Positions 7,301-13,383 of a stretch of 64,000 bases of DNA are shown one piece after another. The notes beneath the pieces are model-generated. The model saw nothing but the letters and a program-made list of their open reading frames with translations. It searched no databases and had not been told where the DNA came from. The translations under genes were made by a program, and so were the position numbers. How positions within the stretch are numbered: the first letter of the stretch is position 1; each line of letters opens with the position of its first letter. Origin of the DNA: Nonomuraea rubra (GTDB lineage Bacteria > Actinomycetota > Actinomycetes > Streptosporangiales > Streptosporangiaceae); contig NZ_JACHMI010000001.1 in NCBI RefSeq assembly GCF_014207985.1, positions 913,001-977,000 on the forward strand, in the 5' to 3' direction.

Positions 7301-9094
7301 GTGTCCGTTTCCGTGGAAGTAGAAGCGCCCACCAGCAATCGCGAATTGGCCGCGTGGGTGAACGAGATCGCAGCACTCACCCAGCCGGACCGCGTCGAGT
7401 GGTGCGACGGGTCGGAGGAGGAGTGGACACGGCTGACCAACCTCCTCGTGGAGCAGGGCACGCTCACCCGCCTGGCCGCCAGGCCCAACAGCTTCTACGC
7501 CAAGTCCGACCCCACCGACGTGGCGCGGGTCGAGGACCGCACCTACATCTGCTCCGAGCGCCGTGAGGACGCCGGGCCCACGAACAACTGGATCGCTCCC
7601 GGCGAGATGCGCCAGACGTTCGGCGAGCTGTTCAAGGGCTGCATGCGCGGCCGCACCATGTACGTGGTGCCGTTCTGCATGGGCCCGCTGGGCGGCGAGA
7701 TCTCCCAGCTCGGGGTGGAGATCACCGACTCCGCGTACGTCGCCGTCTCCATGCGCGTCATGACGCGGATGGGGGACAGGGCGCTGCGGCTGATCGAACA
7801 AAGGGGCGACTTCGTCAAGGCCGTCCACTCCGTCGGGGCGCCGCTGGAGCAGGGCCAGGCGGACGTGCCCTGGCCGTGCAGCTCCACGAAGTACATCAGC
7901 CACTTCCCCGAGACCCGCGAGATCTGGTCGTACGGCTCCGGCTACGGCGGCAACGCGCTGCTCGGCAAGAAGTGCTACGCGCTGCGCATCGCCAGCGTGA
8001 TGGCCCGCGACGAGGGCTGGCTGGCCGAGCACATGCTCATCCTCAAGCTCACGCCGCCCTCCGGCGAGACCCGATACATCGCGGCCGCCTTCCCGAGCGC
8101 CTGCGGCAAGACCAACCTCGCCATGCTCCAGCCCACGATCCCGGGCTGGAAGGTCGAGACGATCGGCGACGACATCGCCTGGATGCGGTTCGGCGACGAC
8201 GGCCGCCTCTACGCCATCAACCCGGAGGCCGGCTTCTTCGGCGTGGCCCCCGGCACCGGCCAGGTCACCAACGCCAACGCCATCCGGACTCTCTGGGGCA
8301 ACAGCATCTTCACCAACGTCGCGCTCACCGACGACGGCGACGTGTGGTGGGAGGGACTCACCGAGGAGCCGCCCGCGCACCTCACCGACTGGAAGGGCCG
8401 CTCCTGGACGCCCGACAGCGACGAGCCCGCCGCCCACCCCAACGCGCGCTTCACCACCCCTGCCGCCCAGTGCCCGACCATCGCGGACGAGTGGCAGGAC
8501 CCCAAGGGCGTGCCCATCTCAGCGATCTTGTTCGGCGGTCGCCGCGCCACCGCCGTACCTCTGGTAACGGAGTCGCTGAGCTGGCAGCACGGCGTCTTCC
8601 TCGGAGCCAACGTCGCCTCCGAGAAGACCGCCGCCGCCGAGGGCAAGGTCGGCGAGCTGCGCCACGACCCGTTCGCCATGCTGCCGTTCTGCGGCTACAA
8701 CATGGGCGACTACTTCGGCCACTGGCTGGACATCGGCCGCCGCCAGGGCGCGAAGCTGCCGAGGATCTACTACGTCAACTGGTTCAGGAAGAACGACGAG
8801 GGCAAGTTCGTCTGGCCCGGCTTCGGCGAGAACAGCCGCGTGCTCAAGTGGATCGTGGAGCGGCTGAACGGCGAGGCCAAGGCCGTGCCCACGCCGATCG
8901 GCCTGCTGCCGGCCGACCTCGACACCCAGGGCCTCGACCTGTCGGAGGAGGACCTGCGCACGCTGCTGACCGTCGACCGGGAGGTCTGGCGGGAGGAGGC
9001 CGCGCTGATCCCCGGCCACTTCGAGACGTTCGGCGACCACCTGCCCAAGGAGCTGTGGGACGAGTACAACGCGCTGCTCGACCGCCTCGGCTGA
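7301..9094 (+). CDS. pckG: Phosphoenolpyruvate carboxykinase (GTP)
   Basis: PckG converts oxaloacetate and GTP to phosphoenolpyruvate, GDP and CO2, the entry step of gluconeogenesis. The 597-aa protein is the usual length for the GTP-dependent class. It shows the cysteine-containing P-loop [13 protein letters not shown], the metal-binding region around [10 protein letters not shown], the substrate loop [10 protein letters not shown] and the GTP-site motif ILFGGRR. The GTG start has GGAGGAG about eight bases upstream. The 260-bp upstream region holds DasR-like boxes, a promoter candidate and a structured leader, implying control at several levels. Confidence 0.97.
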
Positions 9095-9105
9095 GCGCCG
9101 CTCCC

Positions 9106-9134
9106 TTGTGCGGTACGGCCAGGCCGTCTAACTT
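9106..9134 (+). promoter_or_regulatory. Promoter of the Cys-tail/DUF692 cluster
   Basis: TTGTGC (9106-9111) and TAACTT (9129-9134) are separated by exactly 17 bases, a good housekeeping-type promoter. It lies 35 bases before the TTG start of the first membrane protein and just past pckG. Confidence 0.6.
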
Positions 9135-9169
9135 GGCCGGACGCCGTACCGCCGCTCGGGAGGGCAGCC

Positions 9170-10144
9170 TTGGATCTCGTCCTGCTCATCGCAGCCTTCG
9201 GAGTCTTCTTCCTGGTCGGCAGCGCTGAGCAGCGCGTCGAGCGGGAGCGCAGGCGCATCAGCGAGGTCACGCCGAGCGGCACGGGGCACCAGCTCTCCCA
9301 CTACGAGCTGGCCTATCTCTCCGGCGGCCCGCGGCGGGCCGTCAACACGGCGCTGGCCGTCCTCGCGACGGCCGGCGCCGTTCGCGTGTCCCGGTCCTCC
9401 CAGGTCACCCCGGTGCACGGGGCGCGCCCGTCGCCCGAGCCGATCGAGCAGGCCGTGCTCGACGCGCTGGCCGCCAGGCCGGGCGGCTACCGGGCGGGCG
9501 AGCTGCGCCGGGAGCTGGAGCATCATCCCGCGCTCCGCGCCCTGGCAGGCGGGCTGGAGGCCCGCGGGCTGATCGTGCGCGAGGAGGCGTTCGCGACGGC
9601 GTGGCGGCTCAGGGACCGGACCCAGCTCGCGGTGGCGGTGGCCGTGGCGTACCTGGTGCTGCTGGTCGTGCTGAGCGCGATCGGGGTGGCGGGCAAGGAG
9701 AGCTACCTCGTCGGGGCGTTCCTGATCTCCGGGTTCGCGGTGGTCAGCGGTGCCGCGGCGCTGCACCGGCAGAAGCGGCGACTGCGCAACGTCGTCACCC
9801 GCGAGGGGCGCGACGTCCTGGTCTCGGCCCGCGCCTACCACCAGCGGGGCGTACGCGACCACAGCTCGCTCGTCCTGGCCGTCGGCATCCCCGTCGGCCT
9901 GTACGGGCTGCACGAGCTGGGCGACCAGAGCCTGTGCGACGGGCTGTCGGCCGGGGACCCGCGCGGTGACTGCGCCGGCTCCTGCGGCTCGTACGGAGGC
10001 GACGGCTCGACGTTCGGCAGCGACTCCCACGGCGGGCTCGACTTCGGCGGCGGCTCGTCGAGCTGTGGCGGAGGGTCCAGCAGTGGCGGCGGATCCAGTT
10101 GTGGCGGCGGATCGAGCTGCGGGGGCGGATCCAGCGGGAGCTAA
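9170..10144 (+). CDS. TIGR04222-type membrane protein with Cys/Gly/Ser-rich tail (copy 1)
   Basis: The TTG start follows GGGAGGGCAGCC. Order of parts: an N-terminal hydrophobic segment (residues 1-17, MDLVLLIAAFGVFFLVG), a conserved region with HYELAYLSGGPRRAVNTAL and a helical EPIEQAVLDAL region, two central transmembrane helices (about 152-172 and 180-197), a basic segment, and from about residue 262 a low-complexity tail of Gly, Ser and six Cys, ending in repeated SSCGGG units. Members of this actinobacterial family typically occur as paralogues with such tails and near DUF692 genes; the DUF692 enzyme lies two genes downstream. The tail is a plausible target for cysteine modification (inference). 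Confidence 0.85.
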   Translation: MDLVLLIAAFGVFFLVGSAEQRVERERRRISEVTPSGTGHQLSHYELAYLSGGPRRAVNTALAVLATAGAVRVSRSSQVTPVHGARPSPEPIEQAVLDALAARPGGYRAGELRRELEHHPALRALAGGLEARGLIVREEAFATAWRLRDRTQLAVAVAVAYLVLLVVLSAIGVAGKESYLVGAFLISGFAVVSGAAALHRQKRRLRNVVTREGRDVLVSARAYHQRGVRDHSSLVLAVGIPVGLYGLHELGDQSLCDGLSAGDPRGDCAGSCGSYGGDGSTFGSDSHGGLDFGGGSSSCGGGSSSGGGSSCGGGSSCGGGSSGS

Positions 10145-10242
10145 ACGAGCAAAACCATGGCCTGCCCTGGCCCACCCTTTACCGTGCGAATAAGTGTCTT
10201 TCCGGCACGCAGGCTGATCGGCCGCACGAGGGGAGGCCGCAC

Positions 10243-11160
10243 ATGGACCTGTTCCTGCTCATCGTTTCGGTGGCCATCGCGGCTTACGCCGTCGCCACCA
10301 CCTCCGCCGTCACCCGCGCGCACGCCGCCATCCGGCGCGAGACCGCGGGCATCCGATACCGGGATCTCGGCCACTACGACCTGGCCTATCTGGCGGGTGG
10401 CCCGCACCGGGTGGCCGACACCGCGATCGCCACCCTGGCCGAGCGCCACGACCTCCGCGTCTCGCGCGGCGGCCGGGTGCACCGCGTCATCTCGAGCACC
10501 GTCGCGCGGGAGCCCGTCGAGGAGGCGGTGCTGGGCATGGTGGCCGCGCGCTCGGGCCTGCCCGTGATGTCGCTCAGGATCGAGGTCGCCAGGAGCCTGG
10601 CGATGGACGAGATCAAGCAGCGGCTCCTGGCACACGGGCTGCTCCTGCCCGACGACGTCTTCACCCGGGCCCGCGCTCTGGCCGTGCGGCTGCGGGTGCT
10701 GTCGCTGGCCGCGTACGCCGGCTTCGTGATCGAGGGCCTGACCATGGTCGTGGCCCCGAACCTCTACGCGCTGCTCGCCACGCTGGTCTTCCTGGGCACG
10801 GCGTTCGGCGCGGAGGTCGTGCTCGGCACCCACCGCCGGGCCTTGCGCGCCACGCTGACCGCGTCCGGCCGGGAGGCGCTGGACTCGGCCAGGCAGGCGA
10901 ACGCCAGGGGCGTCGCCGAGGGGCCCGTCCCGCTCGCGCTCTACGGCGTCGAGTCGCTGCGCGACCCCACCCTGCGGGCCGAGCTCGGCAGGCAGCAGGC
11001 CAGGCGCGAGCGGCGGCGCGGGAGCTCGTACGCTGGGGGCGGCTCGTCGAGCTGCGGTGGTGGCGGCGGCAGCGCCCACGGCACCGCGGGCTGCGGAAGC
11101 GGATCGTCGTGCGGCGGGGGCGGCGGCTGCGGCGGCGGTGGTTGCGGAGGAGGAAGCTGA
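10243..11160 (+). CDS. TIGR04222-type membrane protein with Cys/Gly-rich tail (copy 2)
   Basis: ATG 10243 is chosen because GGGGAGG precedes it and the product then starts [17 protein letters not shown], matching copy 1 (MDLVLLIAAF). The layout is the same: N-terminal helix, a [19 protein letters not shown] motif, a conserved [11 protein letters not shown] region, two central helices, then a tail (from about residue 270) with five Cys in [16 protein letters not shown] and [11 protein letters not shown] arrangements. It lies 98 bases after copy 1 and its TGA is two bases before the DUF692 start, so it is probably co-transcribed with the enzyme. Function unknown; duplication of copy 1 is clear. 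Confidence 0.86.
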
Positions 11161-11162
11161 CC

Positions 11163-11978
11163 ATGGCGGGGCTGGGAGTGGGCATCGGCTGGCGGTCCGA
11201 GCTGGACCTGACCATCGAGCGCATGGCGGGCGTCGACTTCCTCGAAGTGGTCGCCGAGAACGTCAAGCCCGCCCACCTGCCCGAGTCGCTGCGCGTGCTG
11301 CGGTCCAGGGGCCTGCCGGTGATCCCCCACGGGGTGTCGCTCGGGGTCGGCGGCGCGGAGCCGCCCTCCCCTGCCCGGCTGGCCCACCTGGCCGCCTGCG
11401 CGCAGGCGCTGGAGGCGCCGCTGGTCAGCGAGCACCTGGCGTTCGTCCGCGGCGGCGGCGTGGAGGCCGGGCACCTGCTGCCGGTGCCGCGCACGCGCGA
11501 GTCGCTGAAGGTCGTCGTCGAGAACGTGCGCCGGGCCCAGGACGCGCTGCCCGTCCCGCTGGCCCTGGAGAACGTCGCGGCCATCTTCGGCTGGCCCGAG
11601 GACGAGCTCACCGAGGCGCAGTTCCTGGCCGAGCTGGTGGACGCCACCGGCGTGGGGCTGCTGATCGACGTGGCCAACCTCTACACCAACCAGTTCAACC
11701 TGGGCCTGCCGGCGGTGGCGGCGCTGGACACGCTGCCGCTGGAGCACCTGGCGTACGTGCACGTCGCCGGCGGCTACGAGCATCACGGCATCTGGCACGA
11801 CACGCACACCACGGCAGCACCCCAGGCCGTGCTCGACCTGCTCGCCGAGCTGTGCTCCAGAGTCACCCCGCCCGGGGTGCTGCTGGAGTGGGACGACGAG
11901 TACCCCAGCGACGCCGTGCTGGCCGGCGAGCTGTCCAGGATCAGGGCCGCGATGGCGGTGGCCGGAGAGGCCGGATGA
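11163..11978 (+). CDS. DUF692 multinuclear iron oxidase (MNIO, MbnB-like)
   Basis: DUF692 enzymes are TIM-barrel, multi-iron oxygenases; characterised members (MbnB, ChrH, TglH) remodel cysteine or other residues in peptide substrates. This 271-aa protein has the motif set in order: HGVSL (H56), SEHLAF (E90, H91), LENVA (E136, N137), LIDVANLY (D169, N172), YVHVAGG (H200), WHDTH (D213, H215) and LLEWDDEYP (~E247), consistent with the iron ligands of the family. ATG 11163 starts two bases after the second Cys-tail gene; the stop overlaps the next gene (ATGA). The neighbours make the Cys/Gly tails the leading substrate candidates, which is inference. Confidence 0.92.
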
Positions 11979-12436
11979 GCCCGGAGGAGGCGCGGCGGCT
12001 CGCCGACGTACAGGGGCCGTCGGCGCAGCCGCCGCGGCCTGCCCCGCGACACGAGCACGGCGGGCCACGGGGGCTCGGCGAGCAGGAGGAGCGGCGCAGG
12101 CGGCTGGCCGAGGCGCAGGGCCGCGTCGTGGCGGCCCTGGTGGCCGGGGCGGAGGTGCCCGAGGGCTTCGACCCGGAGCGCATGCGTGCCCAGGCGCTCA
12201 GCCTGATCGCCAAGCGCCGCGCCATCGTGGCCAGGATCCGCCCGGACGCCGCCCAGGCGGCCGGCCCCGACCTGGCCGCCGAGTTCGCCGCGTACGCCGC
12301 CGCCCGCGCCACCCCGCCACCCGGCTACCGCGCCGACGCCGACGACTTCGCCGCCTGGCTGCGCGAGCGCGGCAGGATGCCCGGAGATCCGGCCCCCAGG
12401 CGCCGCTGGTGGTCCCGCCTTCCCGGCAGGCGCTGA
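11975..12436 (+). CDS. Small partner protein of DUF692, 153 aa
   Basis: Translation starts at an ATG overlapping the DUF692 stop (ATGA), so expression is coupled. The N-terminal ~40 residues are Pro/Arg-rich and probably flexible. The rest is helical and basic: a [20 protein letters not shown] helix, [22 protein letters not shown], and an [28 protein letters not shown] segment, ending in a basic tail. MNIO enzymes often need a small partner that binds the substrate leader (MbnC, TglI); position and size fit that role. I believe similar proteins accompany DUF692 in streptomycetes, but I cannot confirm homology. Confidence 0.7.
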
Positions 12437-12501
12437 TCGGCCCTTGATCACCCCGCCCCTCCCTGGCATACCCTGATCGCAGCAAGCGCTTGGGAGGCGG
12501 C

Positions 12502-13383
12502 ATGCGGATCGTCAACATGGGCGAGTGGCCCCTGGACCAGGAGGACGAGCGGCAGCACGACCCCGGCGGCGAGCCGCTGTGGAACGAGTCCTGGTACTAC
12601 GACTTCGTCTCCGAGGACGGCGGGACGGCCGGCTACGTCCGGCTCGGCCTCTACCCCGGCTGGAACCGCGCCTGGTACTGGGCCTGCCTGGTCACCGCCG
12701 GCGGCGGCACGGTGGCGGTGCTCGACAACGAGGCGGCCCTGCCCGCCCGGGACCTGACGGTGGCGGGCCCCGCCTACACGGCCGCGCACCGCACCCCCGA
12801 CCCCTTCGAGCGCGCCGAGATCCACCTGAACTCCGCCGAGCTCACCCTGGACCTGGAGTTCCGCTCGGCGGCCGGCGTCTACGGCTACGCGATCACCCCG
12901 CGCTACGAGATCCCCTGCGAGGTCACCGGCACGATCGGCGGCGTGCCCTTCCGCGGCCACGGCGAGCGTGACCACAGCTGGGGCGTGCGCGACTGGTGGT
13001 CGATCTCGTGGTTGTGGAGCAGCGCCCGCCTGGACGACGGCACGTACCTGCACGGCATGCGCGCCAACCTGGGCATGGAGCTGCCCTGGCCGGCGTTCCT
13101 GGCGGGCAAGGACGGCCTGGCGCACGTCGAGGGCTTCTCGGCGGCCACCGTCTTCGACGGCGACCGGCCGGCGCGGACCGTGCTGAACTTCCCCGGCTGC
13201 GCCACGACCGTGCGCCCGATCGCGTTCGCCCCCGTGACGCTCACCTCGCCCGAGGGGGTGGTGGCGGAGTTCCCGAGGGCGCTGTGCGCGTACGAGACCG
13301 AGGACGGGCGGACGGGGTACGGCTGGACGGAGTGGCACCAGCCGCCGGGCTGGCGGGAGCACGCCTGGGAGCCGAGGGTTTAG
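12502..13383 (+). CDS. DUF7064/DUF7065-like protein (CrtC/AttH-related lipocalin-like fold)
   Basis: ATG 12502 is preceded by GGGAGG at the right distance. The 293-aa product is rich in Trp and Tyr and contains the hallmark HGERDHSWGVRDWW, seen in the hydroxyneurosporene-hydratase/AttH superfamily and its relatives of unknown role. The N-terminus carries ESWYYDFVSEDG and the middle LGLYPGWNRAWYWA, both consistent with beta-strands of a two-barrel fold. No signal peptide. Substrate unknown; lipid or terpenoid handling is only a family-level suggestion. It is co-directional with the DUF692 cluster, 65 bases away, but is not obviously part of it. Confidence 0.75.
   Translation: MRIVNMGEWPLDQEDERQHDPGGEPLWNESWYYDFVSEDGGTAGYVRLGLYPGWNRAWYWACLVTAGGGTVAVLDNEAALPARDLTVAGPAYTAAHRTPDPFERAEIHLNSAELTLDLEFRSAAGVYGYAITPRYEIPCEVTGTIGGVPFRGHGERDHSWGVRDWWSISWLWSSARLDDGTYLHGMRANLGMELPWPAFLAGKDGLAHVEGFSAATVFDGDRPARTVLNFPGCATTVRPIAFAPVTLTSPEGVVAEFPRALCAYETEDGRTGYGWTEWHQPPGWREHAWEPRV

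Follow-up and report, generated by a model that had tools for sequence, protein, structure and literature searches.

The DNA studied here (the window) is a 64,000-nucleotide stretch of the 12.9 Mb genome of Nonomuraea rubra (positions 913,001 to 977,000 of contig NZ_JACHMI010000001.1, assembly GCF_014207985.1). At positions 9170 to 12436 of the window, two membrane proteins with Cys-containing C-terminal tails, here called A and B, are encoded just ahead of an MNIO enzyme and a small partner protein. A sequence-only reading had described two paralogous membrane proteins with six and five Cys in Gly/Ser tails, and directly behind them a DUF692 enzyme with a coupled small gene. Both parts of this description were borne out: A and B belong to TIGR04222 and have the Cys residues counted below, the enzyme matches PF05114, and its gene overlaps the next by 4 bases. 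The features are as follows.

9170-10144, + strand: TIGR04222 membrane protein A (TTG start, 324 residues), with an N-terminal helix, a GOLPH3/winged-helix-like soluble part, a two-helix hairpin and a Cys tail
9926-10141, + strand: C-terminal Cys/Gly/Ser tail of A (Cys 256, 268, 272, 299, 311 and 317)
10243-11160, + strand: TIGR04222 membrane protein B, paralogue of A (ATG start, 305 residues)
11026-11157, + strand: C-terminal Cys/Gly/Ser tail of B (Cys 271, 284, 290, 296 and 301), with a strongly basic linker before it
11163-11978, + strand: MNIO enzyme (DUF692, PF05114; ATG start, 271 residues)
11975-12436, + strand: partner of the family PF26136 (SCO6045-like C-terminal domain; 153 residues), overlapping the MNIO stop by 4 bases

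The ATG at 10243 was picked from homologues as the start of B, and the ATG at 11163 was used for the enzyme; the list of open reading frames has 10099 and 11109, respectively.

A and B are regarded as paralogues because both exceed the cut-off of 43 bits for TIGR04222 (NCBIfam, near_uncomplex), with 110.3 and 88.9 bits; they are 35% identical in an alignment of the family (A2). In an AlphaFold2 model of A (mean pLDDT 77.6), helices span residues 2-31, 138-171 and 178-205, and the tail is disordered (pLDDT below 50 at 273-296 and 298-316). The N-terminal helix has no basic residues ahead of it and RVERERRR behind it, and from this sequence it looks like an anchor rather than a Sec signal peptide. 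Compared with GOLPH3/GPP34 (PF05719), A falls below the Pfam cut-off (16.8 against 29.1 bits) and has in addition the N-terminal helix and the membrane hairpin; a soluble form from N. soli, described below, scores 19.8 bits. Among the 33 members of alignment A2, four match PF05719 at E 0.1 or better and 16 match DUF2207_C. Searched against solved chains, the TIGR04222 profile found winged helices of the CRP/Fnr and MarR types (E 4.4e-4 to 1.3e-3), a hint of a winged-helix-like core and not of DNA binding. Foldseek searches with the models of A and of the partner gave no row below E 0.001.

The enzyme matches PF05114 with 264.1 bits (cut-off 25) and is 97% identical to a protein of N. thailandensis. 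Its closest solved chains by sequence are the DUF692 protein of 8hci/8hi7 (TglH; E 3.6e-25) and 3bww, and in that alignment its blocks SEH, LEN, DVAN, VHVAGG, WHDTH and LLEW fall on positions conserved in TglH and/or 3bww; the conserved His, Glu, Asp and Asn of the iron site may be among these. Among the NCBIfam models it scores nearest to bufferin maturase (190.3 of 310 bits) and stays below that cut-off, as it does for HvfB (149.4 of 360) and for MbnB of methanobactin (40.9 of 325).

The small gene had been proposed as a partner of the enzyme, and this is supported by the family to which it belongs, whose members occur as fusions with the enzyme in 23 of 105 MNIO loci; a role as regulator was rejected on the same ground. 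The product is 93% identical to a protein of N. rubra. The 102 proteins found as its homologues carry PF26136, although a local Pfam scan of the protein itself gave no match to PF26136, nor to DUF2063. The AlphaFold2 model of the partner is all-helical (mean pLDDT 86.4) and its top structural rows, a weak match, are 8hi7_A and 8hci_A, both TglHI entries; by sequence, its profile returned a single solved chain (E 1.3). A helical fold akin to TglI and NGO1945, as in the PME-type 2 partners (DUF2063-like, TglI-like), may be present. The name PF26136 does not occur in the 20 papers, out of 2,695, that a literature search listed; their matches rested on another word. To judge by the domain name, SCO6045 of Streptomyces coelicolor would be an enzyme-partner fusion. 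According to PMC4991794, SCO6045 is 3.0-fold up with H2O2 in the wild type, as one of 28 H2O2-induced genes that include genes for cysteine and sulfur assimilation, and none of the 28 is up in a mutant without HbpS-SenS-SenR.

We then asked how regularly enzyme, partner and tail occur together. In 148 genomes drawn evenly from the class, profile searches found TIGR04222 in 51 and MNIO in 28; for TIGR04222, no more than 17 candidates were scored in any one genome, and misses are possible. TIGR04222 was present in 24 of the 28 genomes with MNIO and in 27 of the 120 without, so that the pairing is not rare. Cys tails within 2.6 kb accompanied 77 of the 89 MNIO loci with a partner but only 3 of the 11 without one (100 of the 105 loci, those not cut by contig ends). 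Together, these counts agree with the earlier proposal that the substrate is the C-terminal tail of a membrane protein, which we regard as probable; the rare co-occurrence that the sequence-only reading had named as grounds for rejecting it was not seen. The genes for tailed protein, enzyme and partner are mostly immediate neighbors.

The tails themselves follow the enzyme. After 13 weak or fragment rows had been dropped, 52 of 65 TIGR04222 rows could be compared: at least three Cys in the last 60 residues were found in 17 of the 23 proteins encoded within 2.6 kb of a same-strand MNIO gene, and in 4 of the 29 others. With the comparison confined to Gly-rich tails, the counts were 16 of 16 and 4 of 18. 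As for the four Cys-tailed proteins away from MNIO, one (G079) lies about 510 bases from a contig end, and the genomes of the other three (G100, G111 and G038) have an MNIO gene elsewhere.

Other TIGR04222 tails were also seen. Those of genus g41 (loci L028-L030, L067, L074 and L075) consist of Asp-Gly repeats and have no Cys, in six genomes in which no MNIO was found; perhaps they are an unmodified metal-binding version. A TIGR04222 subtype represented by the tailed protein of L130 and by G131:C445 (L015) has CCAPGHCGSY ahead of the tail, and adjoins MNIO in L130 but lies on another contig in G131. The host genome itself codes for a third TIGR04222 protein (4380290-4380943, locus L063), far from MNIO, with a short Asp/Gly tail and two Cys (GCGCGGG).

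Within the tails, Cys is almost always followed by Gly. In the last 45 residues of 79 tailed proteins, many of them from related species, 297 of 318 Cys precede Gly, as compared with a mean of 156 and a maximum of 183 in 2000 rounds of shuffling. In the same tails, Gly comes next after 208 of 766 Ser and after 1005 of 1713 Gly. This Cys-Gly rule fits, by analogy, a local motif of the thiooxazole type. A search of the host genome for the corresponding DNA pattern was uninformative, with 11 sites as compared with 17 when the pattern was reversed as a control. An origin of the Cys as a mere side effect of Gly-rich codons was considered and rejected, since Gly-rich tails away from MNIO are mostly Cys-poor and Cys-Gly is far above its level in shuffled tails.

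The tail was found on three kinds of carrier: the three-helix TIGR04222 form, a one-helix form and one soluble protein. The one-helix carriers, of 83-115 residues, occur with a Cys tail at nine loci in two families (G111, G078, G438, G440, G441, G427, G423, G122 and G453); the frames of G427 and G423 are poor in the codon model and rest on position and on likeness to the others. A tenth case, G481, has two Cys, and L211 and L212 have tailed frames that do not match the TIGR04222 profile. The soluble carrier, a form of TIGR04222, is a 173-residue tailed protein encoded behind the enzyme in N. soli DSM 45533 (L152:5788-6309), with no predicted helix; four relatives of it in other Nonomuraea (P0143-P0146) have no Cys tail.

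When 72 of the 105 enzymes were placed in a tree, the 65 rows with the partner-linked enzymes formed one clade (support 100/99), including three without a detected partner (L196, L197 and L210), and the one-helix carriers fell in two separate branches. Near-identical Nonomuraea rows were thinned for the tree, which also omits rows with a first matched piece shorter than 180 residues, such as L133 and that of the window, for which L101 stands; the outgroup branches are long. Since the same sort of tail occurs on carriers of three kinds, it is, as far as the sequences tell, the constant part, and the carrier is not.

MNIO enzymes oxidize Cys with O2 at a site of two or three irons, aided by a partner, and are known for small, often copper-binding peptides. 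We think it probable, with some reserve, that the MNIO enzyme and the PF26136 protein oxidize Cys of the Cys-Gly motifs in the tails of A and B in the cytosol, and that the modified tails serve as membrane-tethered metal ligands. The role of the partner, like that of TglI with TglH, would be to present the tail to its enzyme. The match of the partner to TglI is a tie, which lowers our confidence in the reading as a whole. Several oxidized Cys per tail would be expected. The tail would be made and kept on the cytosolic side, and therefore no leader, protease or exporter would be needed; the product would be the whole anchored protein and not a released peptide. The least certain points are the chemistry, which by analogy with captophorins and bufferins may yield a 5-thiooxazole or another oxidized Cys product, and the role, for which binding of copper in the first place, or of another soft metal, possibly in connection with thiol or oxidative stress, can be suggested. 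A wider view is one that we would neither back nor oppose: that there are MNIO products that are never exported or cleaved, whole proteins with an oxidized Cys-Gly tail at the cytosolic face of the membrane, the tail being a portable cassette moved among GOLPH3-like three-helix, one-helix and soluble carriers with the same enzyme-PF26136 pair.

On which side of the membrane the tail lies bears directly on this proposal. Antoine et al. (2025), in the passages of PMC12452194 that we draw on, predict that such Cys tails are MNIO substrates facing the periplasm; placed there or outside, for instance by four helices, they would act like membrane-bound bufferins. We think this orientation unlikely, although several observations speak for it and against ours. 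A has a fourth hydrophobic stretch at 231-250; where this stretch is counted, basic residues mostly precede it, as the positive-inside rule would have it for an outward-facing tail, and the linker after it, net acidic in 53 of 81 sequences, agrees with this as well. The GPP34 profile match spans only half of the domain, which lowers our confidence in the main reading. The fourth stretch is, however, a helix of only 12 residues in the model of A (234-245), has a mean hydropathy of 0.95 in the family, and contains a charge within its 15 core positions in 41 of the 81 sequences. In the one-helix carriers, basic residues follow the helix in nine of nine cases; no helix is predicted for the N. soli carrier; a GOLPH3-like domain, as modelled, lies on both sides of the hairpin; and the enzyme has, by inspection, no hydrophobic segment at its N-terminus. 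Thus, because of the charges, the soluble form and the GOLPH3-like model, we favor a predicted cytosolic location for the tails of A and B, against the published view. For the same reasons the earlier suggestion of a surface protein or bacteriocin precursor is disfavored, if not conclusively.

A second alternative, which we judge improbable, is that the enzyme acts elsewhere, on another residue of the TIGR04222 protein or on a substrate in trans, and that the Cys tail is an unmodified metal-binding segment or a low-complexity anchor. The exceptions to the association lend it some weight and count against tail modification. In family f18, genus g23 (probably Streptomyces) has nine loci, of which seven have no Cys tail within 2.6 kb and five keep the enzyme beside a Cys-free TIGR04222 neighbor. 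Four of these genomes have another, distant TIGR04222 protein with one tail Cys, so that the enzyme may find its target in trans. L132 lacks a TIGR04222 gene although both enzyme and partner are there, and L097, L099 and L194 also are without a neighboring tail. In such loci the enzyme either has a target encoded elsewhere or serves another purpose. Against this alternative stand the excess of Cys-Gly over shuffled tails, the retention of the tail through a change of carrier in two branches, and the fewer than three Cys in 14 of the 18 Gly-rich TIGR04222 tails without an adjoining MNIO gene. Three loci named as Streptomyces (L143, L146 and L147) do carry Cys tails.

Two observations concern the loci just mentioned. 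L132 and L130, from close Nonomuraea species, share a neighborhood without and with a TIGR04222 gene upstream, the result of a loss or a gain. In f18/g23, the fused enzyme is flanked by related Cys-free proteins, some 250-265 residues long, that have a single hydrophobic segment at the N-terminus (L088 genes 4 and 6, L090 gene 8, L087 gene 3).

That the tail is cleaved and released as in an ordinary RiPP (ribosomally synthesized and post-translationally modified peptide), to act as a bacteriocin, metallophore or signal, seems very improbable: MNIO products so far are mostly peptides according to the parts of PMC12452194 and PMC13097082 consulted, and the comparison of neighboring genes covered six seed proteins (six seed families), which weakens our proposal and leaves room for a nearby protease or exporter, but the three genes are mostly contiguous, and tail length and Cys spacing vary among relatives, unlike what a defined peptide product would have.

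The proposal that A and B are modified in their tails and remain anchored in the membrane has a published core. Two papers, PMC12452194 and PMC5183585, came up for TIGR04222. In the portion of PMC12452194 used here, Antoine et al. (2025) describe clusters, for the most part from Actinomycetota, in which TIGR04222 proteins are encoded next to MNIO, with C-terminal Cys segments as possible periplasm-exposed substrates; at least 10% of the clusters have PME-type 2 partners. The present locus has the same two families and neighborhood, with a Cys-rich C-terminal segment encoded beside MNIO, and the tail-substrate proposal is the same; it differs in the cytosolic location that we favor for the tail. 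The core idea is therefore already published as a prediction, and what is added here concerns the partner, the motif, the carriers and the side of the membrane. The passages considered do not deal with one-helix or soluble carriers, PF26136, partner fusions in the TIGR04222 group, the Cys-Gly rule or a GOLPH3-like domain, and a word search of PMC12452194 gave 0 occurrences of 'SCO6045' and of 'single transmembrane'.

Bufferins and captophorins, in which a single substrate has several Cys modified by MNIO, resemble the system proposed here. In fontiphorin, as described in the sections of PMC13097082 at hand, 5-thiooxazoles form at Lys-Cys of EGKCG repeats with a loss of 4 Da per site, and the product binds copper; the repeat shares Cys-Gly with the tails studied here. 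The precursors of bufferins and captophorins differ, having a Sec signal peptide and a DUF2063-RRE partner where A and B have what looks like a membrane anchor, and a PF26136 partner. TglHI, which makes 3-thiaglutamate, is similar in that TglH is the nearest solved enzyme and TglHI chains head the structural rows for the partner; its target, however, is a single Cys appended to the C-terminus of a peptide scaffold of 50 residues (PMC9016710), whereas the tails here have several Cys.

If the tails are modified, MNIO enzymes would also act on full-length membrane proteins, and an actinomycete family without known function, TIGR04222, would gain a role. A cytosolic instead of an outside location changes what the tail could bind. 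The change of carrier points to the tail rather than the carrier as substrate, and offers natural substrates of 83-115 residues that would be easy to use in vitro.

As to the surroundings of the genes, the sequence-only reading had placed one good promoter at 9106-9134. A sigma-70 consensus scan of 9050-12520 found none, although an actinomycete promoter may differ from the consensus; a consensus scan of the same region found no terminator, and the window has no Rfam match at gathering score. Downstream of the operon, at 12490-13383, lies a DUF7064/DUF7065 gene, for which we know of no link to the MNIO/TIGR04222 system; within the four genes shown it occurs in 9 of 52 named related loci. The upstream gene, which we take to code for PEP (phosphoenolpyruvate) carboxykinase, is in the same position in 39 of these 52 loci.
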